25,540 bases of DNA, from IMG/VR virus record IMGVR_UViG_3300046506_000486, positions 1 to 25,540 of that record; one strand, written 5' to 3'. The notes below the pieces were generated by a model. The model had not been told where the DNA came from. It did not search any database and worked only from the letters and a program-made list of their open reading frames with translations. Each line of letters starts with the position of its first letter. Position 1 is the stretch's first letter. The stretch is from a virus. Below are positions 8,991 through 24,334 of this stretch, piece by piece. A program made the translations under genes and the position numbers.

Positions 8991-9752
8991 ATGGCCATGT
9001 ACAATTTCGGTGCCGGGGTGCTGTGGGGCACGCCGACCTTTGACGCGACGGGCGCGGCGATCGCCAACCCCACGCCGCTGATGCTGGCGGTGACGCAGGA
9101 AGTCTCGATCGACATCAGCGGTGACATCAAGGAGCTGTACGGCTCCAACCAGTTCCCGGTCGCGGTCGGGCGGGGCAAGATGAAGATCACCGGCAAGGCC
9201 AAATACGGCCAGTTCAACGGCGCGGTGATGAACAGCCTGTTCTTCGGCCAGACAGTGACGTCGAGCCTGTACAGCATCGTCAACGACGTCACCGGCGCCA
9301 CGATTCCGGCGACGCCCTTCACGATCACGCCGACCGTGCCGGCCAGCGGCACCTGGGCGGGCGACCTGGGCGTGCGCGACTCCGCTGGTAATCCGATGAC
9401 GCGCGTCGCCTCCGCCCCCACCGCCGGCCAATATAGCGTTACCGCCGGCGCCTATCTGTTCTCGACCGCGGACACCGGCAAAGTGGTTTTCATCAACTAC
9501 AGCTATACCGCGACCTCCACTGTCGCGAAAACCTCGGTCGTGCAGAACATCCAGATGGGTCAGGCGCCAACCTTTCGCGCCGACTTCTTCAATCAGCTGG
9601 GTGGCAACGGCCTGGCGCTGACCCTGTTCGCTTGCGTCTCGAACAAGCTGGCGCTGCAGACCAAGGTCGATGACTTCATGATCCCGGAACTCGATTTCTC
9701 GGCATTCGCCGATCCGTCGGGCAACGTGCTGAAATGGGGGTCGGCGCAGTAA
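8991..9752 (+). CDS. Major tail tube protein
   Basis: The protein of 253 aa starts at ATG 8991, 7 bases after GGAG; the ATG at 8997 is too far from it. The beta-rich sequence with alternating polar and hydrophobic residues fits a tail tube subunit that stacks as hexamers around the tape measure. Visible stretches are YNFGAGVLWGTPTFDATG, TQEVSIDISGDIKELYGSNQ, RGKMKITGKAKYGQFNG and KVVFINYSYTATSTVAKTSV, and the C-terminal half has LALTLFACVSNKLALQTKVD. The pattern VDISGD-x-KELYGSNQFP with KMKITGKA is common in siphophage tube proteins. It lies immediately before the tail assembly chaperone, as expected. It is preceded by its own terminator, so a separate promoter may lie within the upstream region. 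Confidence 0.82.
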   Translation: MAMYNFGAGVLWGTPTFDATGAAIANPTPLMLAVTQEVSIDISGDIKELYGSNQFPVAVGRGKMKITGKAKYGQFNGAVMNSLFFGQTVTSSLYSIVNDVTGATIPATPFTITPTVPASGTWAGDLGVRDSAGNPMTRVASAPTAGQYSVTAGAYLFSTADTGKVVFINYSYTATSTVAKTSVVQNIQMGQAPTFRADFFNQLGGNGLALTLFACVSNKLALQTKVDDFMIPELDFSAFADPSGNVLKWGSAQ

Positions 9753-9753
9753 C

Positions 9754-10128
9754 ATGGCGACCATCCACATTCTGGGGCGCGATTTCGCGATCGCGCCCTA
9801 CAAGCTCGGCGAGCTACGCCGGGCCGCGCCCTTCATCGACAACATCCAGCGCAAGACCGATGGCAGCGGATCGCTGTCCGACCTGATGGATTCGGCGGTT
9901 GATCTGCTTAACGTGCTGTCGATCGGGCTGGTCAAGATCGACCCCGTGCTGACCGCCGATTATCTGGAGGCGAACGTGTCGATGGACGAGTTCGTCGGGC
10001 TGCAGACCGCCTTTCTGGATCTGAGTGAGGAATCGGGACTAAAGCGCAAGGGGGAAGCGACGGCTCCCTCGGTGCCGGCGCCGGAGGGAGCCTCGAGCAC
10101 GGACTTGCCGAGCTTGTCCACGACCTGA
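9754..10128 (+). CDS. Tail assembly chaperone, short (G-type) form
   Basis: This is the unshifted product, 124 aa. It is expected to bind the tape measure and keep it soluble during tail assembly, as lambda gpG does; it is not normally part of the virion. The N-terminus (MATIHILGRDFAIAPYKLGE) and helices LSDLMDSAVDLLNVLSIGLV and FVGLQTAFLDLSEESGLKRK fit the small helical G-type proteins. After residue 100 the sequence becomes low-complexity (EATAPSVPAPEGASSTDLPS), which is the part read only when no frameshift occurs. The gene begins two bases after the tube gene stop. The slippery site and stem-loop for the long form lie inside its 3' end. Function is inferred from position and the frameshift arrangement. 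Confidence 0.85.
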   Translation: MATIHILGRDFAIAPYKLGELRRAAPFIDNIQRKTDGSGSLSDLMDSAVDLLNVLSIGLVKIDPVLTADYLEANVSMDEFVGLQTAFLDLSEESGLKRKGEATAPSVPAPEGASSTDLPSLSTT

Positions 10129-10439
10129 TCGCTGCCGGAATCGAAGGCGGATCGAAGACCGCGATCGAACGCGATTGGGGGCTGGCCGATGTCGATGCCC
10201 AGCATCAGACTTGGCGGCGGACCGGCCCGCCGCTCAATATCGCCGCGGTCGCGATTGCGCGAGCGCTGGGAGTCGACCTGATCCCCAGTGCCGACCGCAA
10301 TTCGGCCGAGACGCGTACACTCTCGCCGAACCAACCCACGCTCGCACGCCTTTCCGCTGAGATCGCGATGCCCGTCGCCGGCGGCGATACGGCCGCAACA
10401 TCGCGCGCGATACTCCAAAGACTGAAGGACATGTCATGA
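9754..10439 (+). CDS. Tail assembly chaperone, -1 frameshifted (GT-type) form
   Basis: The -1 frame is open from 10029 (after TGA at 10026) to TGA at 10437-10439 and has no ATG, GTG or TTG before ATG 10353, near its end. It nevertheless encodes a protein-like sequence: EHGLAELVHDLIAAGIEGGS, IERDWGLADVDAQHQTWRRT, LNIAAVAIARALGVDLIPS, ARLSAEIAM. If ribosomes slip back one base at the G-run 10050-10054, the fusion is about 228 residues: the first 100 of the short form, a Gly/Ser linker (GSDGSLGAGAGGS), then the T-type domain. In lambda the T domain recruits the tail tube subunit. Its stop overlaps the tape measure start (ATGA at 10436), as usual. The evidence is strong for translation by -1 shift; the exact slip codon is inferred. 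Confidence 0.83.
10050..10092 (+). promoter_or_regulatory. Programmed -1 ribosomal frameshift signal
   Basis: Five G residues (10050-10054) precede AA, in zero frame aaG GGG GAA. After a 5-base spacer (10057-10061) there is a perfect 9-bp stem, 10062-10070 (ggctccctc) with 10084-10092 (gagggagcc). Its inner part can form four more pairs around a CCGG loop. Slip of the P-site GGG gives GGG again; the A-site glutamate tRNA could re-pair with GGA using one G-U pair. The heptamer is therefore not the canonical X XXY YYZ, but spacer and stem are in the usual range. Confidence 0.75.
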
Positions 10440-13400
10440 GCGATACCGTCTCCATCCGGATCACGGCCGACACATCCGGAGTCGAGGCGGGCATACAAGA
10501 GGTCCGCGGCGATCTGGGCGAGCTGAAGAGCACGGTCCAGGGCGCCGCGGCCAGCATGAGCGAAGGTTTTGCCGGGATGCGCGGCGCGGTCGAGCGCAGC
10601 GCTCAGTCGATGGATGCGCTGACCGCTAGCATGCGCGGGTTGAGGCCGCAGGAGATCGTGGCCGGCCTGAACGAAATGGCCAGCACGCTGAAGCAAAACA
10701 GCGCGGCACTGCAGGAAATGACCACCAAGTCCGGCGAGGGCAAAAGCGGATTCGGCAAGCTGGTCGAAGGGATCAAGGGCGCTGCCGGCGTCGCCGGCGA
10801 ATTGTACGAAGCGGGCAAGCAGGCTGCCCAGGCGATCGTGGCAATGGGGGAATCGTCCGAGAAGGTCAGCGTGCTGTCGAAGCAACTCGGTATGTCGACG
10901 CACGAGGTGCAGCAATTGCAGGCGATGGCGCAGGCGACCGGCACCGACTTCACCAAGCTGTCGCAAAGCACGGCCACGCTGGACAAGAATTTCAAGCAGA
11001 CCCCCAACACTTTCAAGACTCTTGGGATCGACATCAAGGCCGGCGCGGATCAGATGACGATCCTGACCACGGTCGCCGACAAATTCGCCAAGACCGCCGA
11101 TGGCCCGCAGAAAACCGCGATGGCGATCAAGCTGATGGGCCAGGCCGGCGCCGAGACGATCCCCTTCCTGAACCAGGGTGGCGCGGCGATCAGCGCGCTT
11201 GCGCAGAAGACCGATGCTTATGGCGCCGCCAATGACGGCGCGGTCGCCAGCGGGACGAAATTGGGCGAGTCGGTCAACGAAGCGCAGATCGCCTGGACCG
11301 GCGTCACCCAGACGTTGACCTCGGCGCTCGCGCCGGTGGCGACCGTGATCGTCGACCGCTTCAACGAGCTCGCCAAGGCTTTCACGCAGAGCTATGCCAG
11401 CGGCGGTCTGGTCAAAACGATTTTCGACCTGTTGACCGGTGCTATCGAGGGCGTCGGTGAGATCATCAACACGCTCGGCACGGCCTTCGCAGACCTTTGG
11501 CAGATCAGCGGCGCGGGCGGGCTGAACTGGTCTGAAATCCAGCATACCGTCATGAACGTCGTGATCACCGCGATCAAGACAGTGGTCGCCGCAATCGTCG
11601 CGCTCGCGATCAGCTTCAAGATAGAGTTCGACCTGATCGTCGGCTATGCGCTCGACTGGTGGGGCAAGTTGAAGGAGGCGTTCGATTTCGCCGGGTTGGG
11701 CATCGAGGCCATCAAGAAGACGTTCCAGCTCTTCGGCCAGGTGGCCTATGATGCGCTGACGCTCCACTGGGGCTCGATCGCCTCCGACTGGGACAAGGGG
11801 CTTGCCGACATCGATGCCACCGTCCGCCGCCGCGGCGCTCAGATCGTCGGCGACGCCAAGAAGGCAAGCGAGCAGGCCCAAGGCTATTTCCGCGCGGCGG
11901 TCGATCTGCAAAAGAACGCGCCCGGAATGCTCGCCGGCGTTCTGAACAAGACGCCGCCGCCGCCGCCGAGCGGCGTCGCCACGCCGACGCCAACTCCAAC
12001 ACCGACGCCGACGCCGACGCCGAGCCCGGGTCGCGGTAATGCCGGCGGCGGTGGCGCAGCGAAGCCGCAAAGCCGGATGAACGAGTGGCAAACGGCACTC
12101 GACGAAAAGAAGCTGGCCATCCAGGACGAAGCCGACACGGAAGGAAAGGTCCGTCAGATGTCGCTCCAGGAGGAGCACGCCTACTGGCAGAACATCCTCG
12201 ACACGGTGAAAATGTCAAAGAGCGAGGAAACGGCCGTCAAACGCAAGGCAACTGAAACCAGCATCGCCATGCATGAGGAGGAATTCCAAGCTAAGGTGGA
12301 GAAGCTCCGCAAGGAGCTTGATCTCGCGCACGGCAACGTCGAAGAAGAAAAGAAAATAGGTAAGGAGATCGTCGACGCGACCAAGGCGCGTTACGGCGAA
12401 GAATCGAAACAGGCGCGGGATACCGAAAAGCAGATCACGGACTATCTGCAGCACGAGGCGGACGAGCGCCGGCGGATTCAGGACGACTATTTCAAGCATG
12501 TCGCCGAAATGCGGCATGGCGAGATTGATGACGCCCAGGCTCAGGCCGAATTTCTCAACCAGATGGGCTTAATGAGCGATGCTCAGCTGCTCCAGCAGCA
12601 GAAGAAATTCGAAGATGATCGATACAATATCGATCGCGGCGAATTGGTCCGCAAGCTCAGCCTTCTCAAGGCCGACCCGACCACCAATCCTGATGCGATC
12701 ACAGCTCAGAATGCCAAGATCGAGCAACTCAACCAACAGCATCAGCTCCGGATCAACGAAACCAACCGGAAGGCCGTTCTGCAGCGGACTCAGATCGAAC
12801 GCCAGGCGATCAACCAGATCGCCGCGGGCTGGGCGCAGGGCATCGCAAAGATGGTCACCCTGCAGCAGGGTTTCACCGCGACGATCAAGGGTCTGTGGCA
12901 GACCGTTCAGCAGGCGATCGGCGACATGATCGCCAAGATACTGGAAAAATGGCTGTCGCAGGAAATGATCGCCCTCGCGACCAAGATTGGATTGCTCAAG
13001 ACCGAAACGGCAACGACGGTGGAGGCGGAGTCCGCAAAGGCCGGTGCCGGCGGGACTGCATCAATGGCTGCCGCGCCATTCCCGATGAACCTTGCCGCTG
13101 CCGGGTTCGGCGCATCCATGTCGGCGTTGGCAGGCAGCTATGCGTCGATGGTTGCATTTGACGTTGGCGCCTACGACCTCAGCAGCGACGGCATCGGCAT
13201 GCTCCACAAGGGCGAGACGATCATCCCGGCGGACCAGGCAGGCGGTTGGCGCAATGTGATGGGCCTGTTCGCTTCAATGCCGACCTTCGGCGTGCCGTCG
13301 CTGGGGTTCGGTGCTGGCGCAAACAATAACGCGCCGGCAGCGGCCAACGACGGCGGCGTGTCGGGTGGTGGGTACCATTACCACGATCATAGCGCGCGCG

Positions 13401-13501
13401 GCCTGTCCGAAGCGCAGATCATCGCCAACCGGAACGCCTTCGCCAAGGCCATGAAGATGGCACACCGCGAGGGCAAGCTGGGCTTCTCTCTGCCGGGTTA
13501 G
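10436..13501 (+). CDS. Tail tape measure protein
   Basis: At 1021 aa this is the largest head/tail assembly protein before the tip module. It sets tail length and is extended inside the tube. The N-terminus (SDTVSIRITADTSGVEAGIQ, EVRGDLGELKST) is typical of tape measures. Long helical regions rich in Ala, Lys, Glu and Gln follow. A hydrophobic stretch lies at about residues 376-410 (VVITAIKTVVAAIVALAISF, then LIVGYALDWW), as in tape measures that insert into the membrane. A Pro-Thr repeat hinge is at about 509-532. A charged coiled-coil section (LQEEHAYWQNILDTVKMSKS onward) leads to the C-terminus with YHYHDHSARGLSEAQIIANR. By the usual relation of about 1.5 angstrom per residue, the tail would be roughly 150 nm (inference). 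It starts in ATGA overlap with the chaperone and its TAG overlaps the stop of the convergent gene. Confidence 0.93.
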   Translation: MSDTVSIRITADTSGVEAGIQEVRGDLGELKSTVQGAAASMSEGFAGMRGAVERSAQSMDALTASMRGLRPQEIVAGLNEMASTLKQNSAALQEMTTKSGEGKSGFGKLVEGIKGAAGVAGELYEAGKQAAQAIVAMGESSEKVSVLSKQLGMSTHEVQQLQAMAQATGTDFTKLSQSTATLDKNFKQTPNTFKTLGIDIKAGADQMTILTTVADKFAKTADGPQKTAMAIKLMGQAGAETIPFLNQGGAAISALAQKTDAYGAANDGAVASGTKLGESVNEAQIAWTGVTQTLTSALAPVATVIVDRFNELAKAFTQSYASGGLVKTIFDLLTGAIEGVGEIINTLGTAFADLWQISGAGGLNWSEIQHTVMNVVITAIKTVVAAIVALAISFKIEFDLIVGYALDWWGKLKEAFDFAGLGIEAIKKTFQLFGQVAYDALTLHWGSIASDWDKGLADIDATVRRRGAQIVGDAKKASEQAQGYFRAAVDLQKNAPGMLAGVLNKTPPPPPSGVATPTPTPTPTPTPTPSPGRGNAGGGGAAKPQSRMNEWQTALDEKKLAIQDEADTEGKVRQMSLQEEHAYWQNILDTVKMSKSEETAVKRKATETSIAMHEEEFQAKVEKLRKELDLAHGNVEEEKKIGKEIVDATKARYGEESKQARDTEKQITDYLQHEADERRRIQDDYFKHVAEMRHGEIDDAQAQAEFLNQMGLMSDAQLLQQQKKFEDDRYNIDRGELVRKLSLLKADPTTNPDAITAQNAKIEQLNQQHQLRINETNRKAVLQRTQIERQAINQIAAGWAQGIAKMVTLQQGFTATIKGLWQTVQQAIGDMIAKILEKWLSQEMIALATKIGLLKTETATTVEAESAKAGAGGTASMAAAPFPMNLAAAGFGASMSALAGSYASMVAFDVGAYDLSSDGIGMLHKGETIIPADQAGGWRNVMGLFASMPTFGVPSLGFGAGANNNAPAAANDGGVSGGGYHYHDHSARGLSEAQIIANRNAFAKAMKMAHREGKLGFSLPG
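11981..12025 (+). repeat. acGCCG-type tandem repeat coding a Pro-Thr hinge in the tape measure
   Basis: A (Pro-Thr)n tract of about seven units, preceded at 11951-11967 by a CCG run coding PPPPP. It divides the N-terminal and C-terminal coiled-coil halves of the tape measure and can vary in length by slippage. Confidence 0.7.
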
Positions 13502-14238
13502 CGCTTGGCTCGGAAGGGTATTTCGAACGAAATTGATGAGCCTCCGTAAGAGCCCGTGCTTGGGGATACGCCGGCGATCGACCCTGCCATCACGCTGACG
13601 CCGCACATTTCAGTATCGCCGAACATGCCGGATGAGCCACGCGGGCCCGAAGGCGTTTCCCTATACTCTTCCCGGCTTGCCCGCTGTTTCTGCATCGCGT
13701 CATATCGGCGGTAGAAGGCTAGACGGTCAGTCCCAACACATGCCGGCCCAAGGACCGCGGTGGCGAGTTCGAATATGTGTGTGTTGTCCCAATCCGATTG
13801 GGTTTGAGCCAGCAACGGGGCGTGCTTCAGGAAAAACTTCACGCTGCTAACGTGTTCCCCATCGTTCAAATCCATCTCCGCGCGCAATACGTTCGGTCCG
13901 AAGATGTCCTTGTCGCGCGATCCAAACTGGACGAGGAATTCCATAAATTGCGAGATCGGGCGTCCATCGATGTCGTGCTCGACCGGCTTCGGAAGCTTAA
14001 AACCGCCACTCATCCAAACCGGCTCGGTCGTGACCACCACGCCGAAGCTCAAGGTCGCGAGACAGGTCACGGCGTCCGCGCCGAGGCACTTTCTTGCTGC
14101 GGGGTCTTGGCGGAGCTGGTCGGATCGAGCCTTGATTGCCGCAACGGCCGCCGCGTTTTCTTTTTTGTCCTTATTGTCAGCTGCAGCCGGCGTCGCGACC
14201 ATGGCAAGCGCGATCGGCGCGATCATCCATCTTAACAT
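13498..14238 (-). CDS. Secreted protein of unknown function (antisense accessory gene)
   Basis: The 246-aa minus-strand product starts at ATG 14238, preceded by a strong Shine-Dalgarno (ggaggaga, 5-6 bases upstream on that strand). It begins with a classical signal peptide: MLRWMIAPIALAMVATPAAA, then DNKDKKE, with likely cleavage after Ala20. The mature protein has a charged helix (AIKARSDQLRQDPAARK), several Cys residues (LGADAVTCLATLSFG, GPACVGTDRL, FGDTEMCGVSV) that may form disulfides in the periplasm, and a Gly/Ser-rich C-terminus. I recognise no family. It is transcribed against the late genes, and its TAA overlaps the tape measure stop. Signal peptide plus orientation suggest expression in the lysogen, and export to the periplasm or beyond. 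Confidence 0.72.
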   Translation of the reverse strand: MLRWMIAPIALAMVATPAAADNKDKKENAAAVAAIKARSDQLRQDPAARKCLGADAVTCLATLSFGVVVTTEPVWMSGGFKLPKPVEHDIDGRPISQFMEFLVQFGSRDKDIFGPNVLRAEMDLNDGEHVSSVKFFLKHAPLLAQTQSDWDNTHIFELATAVLGPACVGTDRLAFYRRYDAMQKQRASREEYRETPSGPRGSSGMFGDTEMCGVSVMAGSIAGVSPSTGSYGGSSISFEIPFRAKR

Positions 14239-14334
14239 TTGTCTCTCCTCCGGTTGACCTAACCGTGGACGCAGGCTTGGCATCACGGTCGATGCGATGG
14301 GCGGTTGTCCAAGACGCCCGACAGACGAGCCGGA

Positions 14335-22912: not shown

Positions 22913-23935
22913 CTATAGTCGCTGGCCAACCCTTTTGCTGAACTGATGCGACGGCTTCTCCACCACTCGATAGAAGGCGTAAGCGCATAGGCCAACAGCA
23001 ATGGCTTGTACTGGATATAGAGCCAGCGGAAGGTGCGCATGATAAATGTCACCGAACAGTGTCAGCGGAAATCGGTGGACGAGGTAAATAGAGTAAGCTG
23101 CACCGCCGAGCGCTTCCAATCGATCATTCGTCCGATGGCTGGTGAGACGCTGGAGCTCCCTCGCCAACCACAAATACCCGACGGGCACGAACGCGGCGAC
23201 GGCCCAAGTGAGCGGAATCTTTGGTCCGTGATAGAACAGGAATGTCGCGAGAACAGCGCAGACCGGCAGCGCCCCGCGTAATAGCCATACTGACGGGAGG
23301 CGATCATTGAACAGCGCTCCCGAGCGATAGCGTTCCGCGAGAATGGCGCCGAGCAGCCACATTGGAGCGCAGAAAACAAACGTCAGGACGCCGAAATTGA
23401 AAGGACGGAGCGCACCAGGGAAACTCGCAAGTAACCCGACACTTGCGATGGTGCTTATCGCGGTCGCCCGCCCCCAGCGACCGCGTAGGATGGGGAAAAG
23501 TACCGGGTACAGAGCGTAATAGGCCAACTCGCAATAGACGCTCCACAGCACGCTATCGAGCGCGCCGACGTACTGCTTCCCCGCGGCGTGCGCGGCACCA
23601 ATGATAACGATCAACGGAATGCCGATACGAAGGCCCCGCTTTATCCAGAACGGCAGGATCGCGACCCGCTCCTTGGCGACGTTCGGAAAATGGATGCAGA
23701 ACCCCGAGATAAAGAAGAACACGCACACCGCGAGGGTGCCGTTGGGGAGACTATCCCATACGCCGGCAATCAGCTTGATCTGCCCGCTGGTTTCGCCGGC
23801 GAACCGGTCGGACGGGATCCACGCGCCATGGCCAGCTGCCACGACTGATGCAGCCAGGAACCGGAAGGTATCGAGCCCGCGCACGAAATGCGGGCTGATT
23901 TTGGCATCTTCGTCGGTCGCAGCGGAATCGTGCAT
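22913..23935 (-). CDS. Acyltransferase family 3 membrane O-acyltransferase (likely surface polysaccharide O-acetylase)
   Basis: 340 aa on the minus strand, read from ATG 23935, which is placed 15 residues before the family start FVRGLDTFRFLAASVVAAGH. Family marks: the R-x-L-A segment with a His (AAGHGAWI), FFFISGFCIHF, the CELAYYALYPVLF segment (usual W-x-x-x-x-E-x-x-F-Y), AYSIYLVHRFPLT, and the closing EKPSHQF. About ten hydrophobic helices are visible, as in acyltransferase-3 enzymes that transfer acetyl groups to O-antigen, capsule or other glycans across the inner membrane. It lies convergent with the tail spike (52 bases) and divergent to the lysis genes. Orientation suggests expression in the lysogen. 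The upstream ribosome binding site is weak. Alternative upstream starts add a basic, unfamily-like extension. Confidence 0.84.
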   Translation of the reverse strand: MHDSAATDEDAKISPHFVRGLDTFRFLAASVVAAGHGAWIPSDRFAGETSGQIKLIAGVWDSLPNGTLAVCVFFFISGFCIHFPNVAKERVAILPFWIKRGLRIGIPLIVIIGAAHAAGKQYVGALDSVLWSVYCELAYYALYPVLFPILRGRWGRATAISTIASVGLLASFPGALRPFNFGVLTFVFCAPMWLLGAILAERYRSGALFNDRLPSVWLLRGALPVCAVLATFLFYHGPKIPLTWAVAAFVPVGYLWLARELQRLTSHRTNDRLEALGGAAYSIYLVHRFPLTLFGDIYHAHLPLALYPVQAIAVGLCAYAFYRVVEKPSHQFSKRVGQRL

Positions 23936-24004
23936 TCGGGCGGCGTAGCGGCGTCGGCTTCGAGCGCAAAGTGAATTGAAGGCCCGCCCTCGGGGAGACT
24001 CTGC

Positions 24005-24334
24005 GTGGCTAAAACTCCTTCGCCAGAACAAACAAAGTCATCCACGCCTTTGAGAGCACCCGCCCCAATGACCACGCCCGCCAAAGCCCCGCCGACATGG
24101 CTGGCCTGGCTTCCCGTCATCACGACGATCTTCCTGATCGCGGGCTTCCTATGGGCGGGCGGTGGCAAGATGACCGAGCTTGCGGAACACGAACGTCGCC
24201 TCACCGCGCTGGAGACGCGGCGCGAGTCCGATGCCGACAAGCTCGACAAGATCAACGAGCGCACCGCGCGGATCGAGGCCAAGCTGGAAATATTGGTGCC
24301 GAGTGGTGGCGTCCCGCGGGTGGCGGCCAAATGA
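24005..24334 (+). CDS. Small membrane protein with coiled coil, lysis cassette (spanin- or holin-accessory-like)
   Basis: 109 aa. GTG 24005 is preferred since GGGGAGA lies 5-6 bases upstream; ATG 24068 has a poorer site. After a Pro/Thr-rich N-terminus there is one membrane helix (about residues 32-52, WLAWLPVITTIFLIAGFLWA) and then a charged heptad region (ELAEHERRLTALETRRESDA, LDKINERTARIEAKLEILVP), a coiled coil. This is the topology of an inner-membrane spanin (Rz-like) or of XhlA-type holin accessory proteins with reversed order. Gene order beside holin and endolysin supports a lysis role; no lipobox-bearing partner (Rz1-like) is seen nested within it. Stop overlaps the next start (ATGA at 24331). 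Confidence 0.66.
   Translation: MAKTPSPEQTKSSTPLRAPAPMTTPAKAPPTWLAWLPVITTIFLIAGFLWAGGGKMTELAEHERRLTALETRRESDADKLDKINERTARIEAKLEILVPSGGVPRVAAK

Follow-up and report, generated by a model that had tools for sequence, protein, structure and literature searches.

The window, i.e. the whole stretch of DNA that was analyzed (25,540 nt, IMG/VR record IMGVR_UViG_3300046506_000486), is a virus record of 25.5 kb from a Sphingomonas-type phage, and Pfam and PHROG matches identify a siphophage structural module in it. The module includes genes for a portal, a prohead protease, a head-tail joining protein, a tail protein, a tape measure protein, DUF2460, a phiJL001 Gp84-like hub, NlpC/P60 and Rcc01698-like tail proteins. 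Two antisense genes were also noted: (i) a 262-aa ORF at 13498-14286 (-), located between the tape measure and DUF2460 genes, with a signal-peptide-like start and no Pfam match, which is a possible moron; and (ii) an acyltransferase gene at 22913-24031 (-) (PF01757, E 2e-24), which adjoins a tail-fibre-like gene and is possibly a lysogenic conversion gene that alters the host surface. Upstream of and overlapping the tape measure gene lie two overlapping reading frames, referred to here as G and T, and the locus comprises the following features:

8997-9752 (+), putative major tail (tube) protein gene, assigned by its position upstream of G
9754-10128 (+), G, zero-frame gene for a putative tail assembly chaperone of 124 aa, assigned by gene order, dN/dS and start and stop codons kept in all close relatives
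10029-10439 (+), T, startless -1 frame, recognized by its identity in relatives, its -1-frame dN/dS and the lack of a common upstream start
10050-10056 (+), putative slippery heptamer G GGG GAA, which is invariant and at which the frame of selection switches
10057-10061 (+), 5-nt spacer between heptamer and hairpin, as read in the sequence
10062-10070 (+), 5' arm of the hairpin, GGCTCCCTC, with the invariant core GGCTCCC at 10062-10068 (pairing, folding and conservation)
10084-10092 (+), 3' arm of the hairpin, GAGGGAGCC, with the invariant core GGGAGCC at 10086-10092 (pairing, folding and conservation)
10436-13501 (+), tail tape measure gene (PHROG tape measure matches, best E 8e-21), sharing an ATGA with the T stop

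The order tail protein - G - T - tape measure, with two overlapping frames between the major tail protein and tape measure genes, matches the G/GT arrangement. The product of 8997-9752 matches phrog_8234 (E 9e-84, function unknown) and, weakly, a virion structural protein, and shares 34-45% identity with its positional counterparts in Acinetobacter, Pseudomonas and Brevundimonas phages (40-45% for Acinetobacter phage 5W, MD-2021a and Pseudomonas phage KT1). G and T in the window have no Pfam match and no confident PHROG family, and their relatives give only weak PHROG "tail" matches. The AlphaFold models are of low confidence (pLDDT 55 for G and 49 for T), too poor for fold comparison.

Relatives were collected by searches with G and with T, which returned 27 viral contigs each, and with G also two Sphingomonas genomes; the comparison among close relatives comprises 28 aligned sequences. 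One relative (L056) resides in Sphingomonas asaccharolytica NBRC 15499. The -1 frame is open from 10029 to 10439, where the sequence-only reading had counted about 137 codons and we count 136 plus the stop. That reading had also placed no ATG, GTG or TTG before codon 109, which is correct, the first being codon 114 (ATG at 10368). The T stop (TGA, 10437-10439) overlaps the tape measure start (ATG, 10436-10438), giving the ATGA described earlier. T could in principle be translated by itself, through internal initiation or coupled re-initiation, and the overlap of G and T, the Shine-Dalgarno-like AAGGGGGA run and the distinct short T gene annotated in Brevundimonas records are in keeping with this idea. 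Against it, the -1 frame of the window has no start codon at Shine-Dalgarno distance from the G run, and no upstream start is conserved in any relative, the common starts being the codon-114 ATG and one at the very end. Since T has no shared start before codon 114, internal initiation was rejected, and we consider separate translation of T extremely unlikely. The part of T that is used is probably 10056-10436 (127 codons), which together with G residues 1-101 would give a GT fusion of 228 aa.

The two frames leave distinct substitution patterns. Across the 28 sequences, variability in G concentrates at position 3 of frame 0 (mean minor-base frequency 0.170 vs 0.019-0.036 elsewhere), and in T at position 3 of frame -1 (0.252 vs 0.065-0.093 elsewhere). 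The frame whose third position is free to vary changes from 0 to -1 within 10048-10060. In agreement with this, G has a dN/dS of 0.079 in frame 0 and T one of 0.205 in frame -1. The values for the overlap are 0.6 (frame -1) and 2.7 (frame 0), so that the overlap mainly serves T. Both G in frame 0 and T in frame -1 are thus shown to be under purifying selection, with the frame of selection changing at the heptamer. Open frames come cheaply in this G+C-rich genome, and several relatives have, by chance, no -1-frame stop anywhere in G, which could suggest that T is an unexpressed chance ORF. However, T has -1-frame codon periodicity, is 58-90% identical across 27 relatives, and is conserved as a protein down to 34% identity in more distant ones; this substitution pattern already refutes a chance open frame, to which we assign a negligible probability. 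Missing conservation of the -1 frame in relatives had been named beforehand as an outcome that would speak against a frameshift, and it is not seen. In one relative (L023 / L055, IMGVR_UViG_3300025937_000351), T has a 2-base gap absent from all the others and so loses its frame, reflecting either a damaged copy or an assembly error.

The zero-frame codons at 10048-10059 read AAG GGG GAA GCG, which confirms the coordinates and register given earlier for G GGG GAA at 10050-10056. The heptamer is invariant in all 28 aligned sequences; AAG, GGG and GAA show no third-position variation, and AAG is replaced by CAG in two relatives. Only 12 of the 67 amino-acid-invariant codons of G keep a single codon. 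The mere occurrence of the heptamer is not beyond chance (four copies of GGGGGAA in the window vs 3.0 expected); what is beyond chance is its frame, position and conservation. A second in-frame copy, in the context ATG GGG GAA at 10846-10852 (+) in the tape measure gene, is followed by 129 open -1 codons and is replaced in the same relatives by GGC GAG, GGA GAG, GGT AAG and others. Being freely substituted, it provides an internal control against which the conservation at 10050 can be judged. The sequence-only reading had proposed a comparison of related phages as a check, and this comparison finds the G run invariant and the core of the downstream stem kept in 28 of 28 sequences. The slip position, which had been inferred, is now supported by heptamer conservation and by the switch in codon periodicity within 10048-10060.

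G and T profiles reached relatives with 34-57% T identity. The heptamer keeps its register ahead of the T frame in all divergent relatives examined, including those at 34% identity, so that close and divergent lineages alike retain a putative slippery site towards the 3' end of G that would lead into T. The preceding codon is GCG, TCG, GAG, CCG or AAG, followed by GGG GAA; the in-frame heptamer was located in contigs L089-L091, L118, L120-L124, L128 and L131-L136. In the Brevundimonas phages Strzyga and Polewnik the site reads TCG GGG GAG, i.e. GGGGGAG. In Acinetobacter phage 5W, MD-2021a and Pseudomonas phage KT1, an in-frame G GGG GAA either immediately precedes the G stop or lies close to it and is followed by 89-101 codons of -1 frame, and at the two Acinetobacter loci it is the sole GGGGGAA in 8.7 kb. 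A tblastn search of a phage genome collection gave no sequence relative of G, and a profile search of 385 genomes from the class to which the Sphingomonas host belongs added nothing beyond one chance match (L137).

Database records of these relatives differ from what the frames imply. For Strzyga and Polewnik (L060 4789-5483 and L061 4792-5486), G and T are annotated as two hypothetical proteins, and a GT fusion with the GGGGGAG site is absent from the records. In the Acinetobacter phages (L058 4766-5340 and L062 4766-5349), GGGGGAA abuts the G stop in frame, and a -1 fusion of about 90 codons is unannotated.

A homopolymer run at a frame junction also raises the possibility of transcriptional slippage, whereby mRNAs that gain or lose one base would express T without ribosomal frameshifting. 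Known runs that support such slippage are usually longer than five G. Here the run is just five G (with A or C in front of it in the sequences used for the hairpin analysis) and is no longer in the relatives examined, its codon register ahead of a Glu codon never changes, and a hairpin usually follows at the spacing typical of ribosomal frameshifting. For these reasons transcriptional slippage was rejected and is regarded as very unlikely.

We analyzed the region downstream of the heptamer for a stimulatory structure. The 5-base spacer and perfect 9-bp stem (10062-10070 with 10084-10092) that had been described are both present, and the segment 10057-10128 folds with a minimum free energy of -35.8 kcal/mol (z -2.4 vs dinucleotide shuffles). 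Position and stability fit those expected of a stimulatory hairpin, namely a stable stem-loop placed some 5-9 nt past the slippery heptamer. The stem core GGCTCCC/GGGAGCC is invariant in the 28 aligned sequences, i.e. the central 7 of the 9 bp, and some of this invariance could arise from coding in two frames. The pair 10069-10085 shows a compensating change in some close relatives and a mismatch in others. Covariation in the homologous stem is not above that of shuffles, and is uninformative because the core is nearly invariant. In most divergent lineages a hairpin begins roughly 4-7 nt past the heptamer; L120, L123 and L131 have a different stem sequence with a hairpin at the same place. Over 25 folded sequences the mean z is -2.3, with several lineages near zero: the signal is weak in L118, L120, L135, L136 and L060, and the hairpin is small in corynephage phi16 and the Acinetobacter phages, which indicates that a strong stem is not universal. 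Taken together, folding and conservation support the assignment of 10062-10092 as a putative stimulatory stem. An upstream Shine-Dalgarno stimulator was not found: 10034-10045 reads CGGGACTAAAGC, and the nearest GAGG is about 20 nt away.

Based on these comparisons, we propose that the locus is very probably a conserved lambda-type G/GT programmed -1 frameshift; gene order, the startless T, the slip position and the stem, which together made up the lambda-like arrangement recognized earlier, are all backed by comparative evidence. The majority of ribosomes would read G through to its stop at 10128, while a minority would stall at the hairpin (10062-10092) when GGG occupies the P site and GAA the A site, slip one base back on G GGG GAA, and read the -1 frame to 10439 to produce the GT fusion of 228 aa. 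If the lambda model applies, the G part would bind the tape measure protein and the T part would recruit tail tube subunits, which implies that a low GT:G ratio may matter for tail assembly. We infer the slippage itself, its translational nature and its efficiency, and the chaperone role of the products.

How the tRNAs move can be framed as two variants. In the first, which we consider fairly probable, tRNA-Gly and tRNA-Glu both slip: tRNA-Gly would re-pair perfectly, GGG to GGG, whereas tRNA-Glu would meet GGA with G:C, G:U and A:U pairs, i.e. with a G:U pair in the middle of the A-site codon. In the second, the P-site tRNA-Gly alone slips on G_GGG before the A site is filled, with GGA subsequently read as Gly, so that no G:U re-pairing is needed. 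Perfect re-pairing of tRNA-Gly is compatible with this variant, and the GAG in the A site of the Brevundimonas phages indicates that the heptamer need not end in A. However, slippage in the P site alone would not require the Glu codon (GAR) that always follows GGG across very divergent G proteins, unless the protein needs Glu at this point, which may be another reason for its constancy. The constant GAR therefore leans towards tandem slippage, and we regard slippage of tRNA-Gly alone as possible but rather unlikely. The variants predict different junction peptides: K-G-E-S-D-G, with Glu kept, for tandem slippage, and K-G-G-S-D-G for slippage in the P site only.

The programmed -1 frameshift of lambda gpG/gpGT was reportedly described by Xu, Hendrix and Duda in 2004, and the lambda slippery site is GGGAAAG. 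The present locus shares with lambda the overlapping frames between the tail tube and tape measure genes, a startless -1 T and a putative slip near the end of G, but differs in its GGGGGAA heptamer and clear downstream hairpin, and in that G and T have no detectable similarity to a Pfam chaperone family. The lambda frameshift and its role in chaperoning the tape measure protein are covered in PMC5009743. The sequence-only reading had called the heptamer unusual and pointed to the G:U pair in the middle of the A-site codon (GAA to GGA). The pairing agrees with the sequence, and the heptamer indeed lies outside the textbook X_XXY_YYZ set; it is not new, as it already occurs in about a thousand SEA-PHAGES (actinophage) tail assembly chaperone frameshift genes, where it is the "fivetwo" motif of PRFect (PMC10885494), and in the gp14A frameshift of corynephage phi16 (PMC5506516). 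A systematic study in E. coli (PMC4066793) dealt with X_XXZ_ZZN motifs; GGGGGAA falls outside this pattern and is thus not among the motifs covered.

The likeness to the "fivetwo" sites extends to the identical seven bases, in zero frame within the G/T overlap, to the gene context and to the G:U re-pairing of tRNA-Glu on GGA, which PMC10885494 also proposes. Those sites are predicted in actinobacteriophages, whereas the present ones are in proteobacterial phages and come with comparative evidence that localizes the slip. In phi16 (KY250482) we confirmed GGGGGAA in frame at 9966, at the G/T junction, with a -1 frame open for 124 codons beyond it. Unlike the present locus, phi16 has a reported pseudoknot and an upstream Shine-Dalgarno-like GAGG, and its heptamer is a few codons from the G stop. 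The 5W, MD-2021a and KT1 loci have a related tail protein and an in-frame GGGGGAA before a -1 frame, but their frames are annotated as separate hypothetical proteins or not at all, and the Acinetobacter phages have only a weak hairpin and a heptamer directly adjacent to the G stop.

The G/GT frameshift and GGGGGAA are hence already known, and on sequence comparison the addition is the broad proteobacterial conservation. Whether G_GGG_GAR represents a distinct bacterial -1 slippery class, in which tRNA-Glu re-pairs on GGA through a mid-codon G:U, is in our estimate evenly balanced; such a class would have been kept for a very long time in the tail-chaperone genes of alpha- and gammaproteobacterial and actinobacterial phages, and would be absent from standard heptamer tables because screens covered only X_XXZ_ZZN. 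The locus provides a clean comparative case for a slippery site so far inferred mainly from annotated actinophages, and because divergent proteobacterial phages retain G_GGG_GAA (GAG in one lineage), re-pairing through G:U in the A site can be tested directly. Related phages have T listed as a separate gene in their public records; in this phage, the GT fusion should be annotated.
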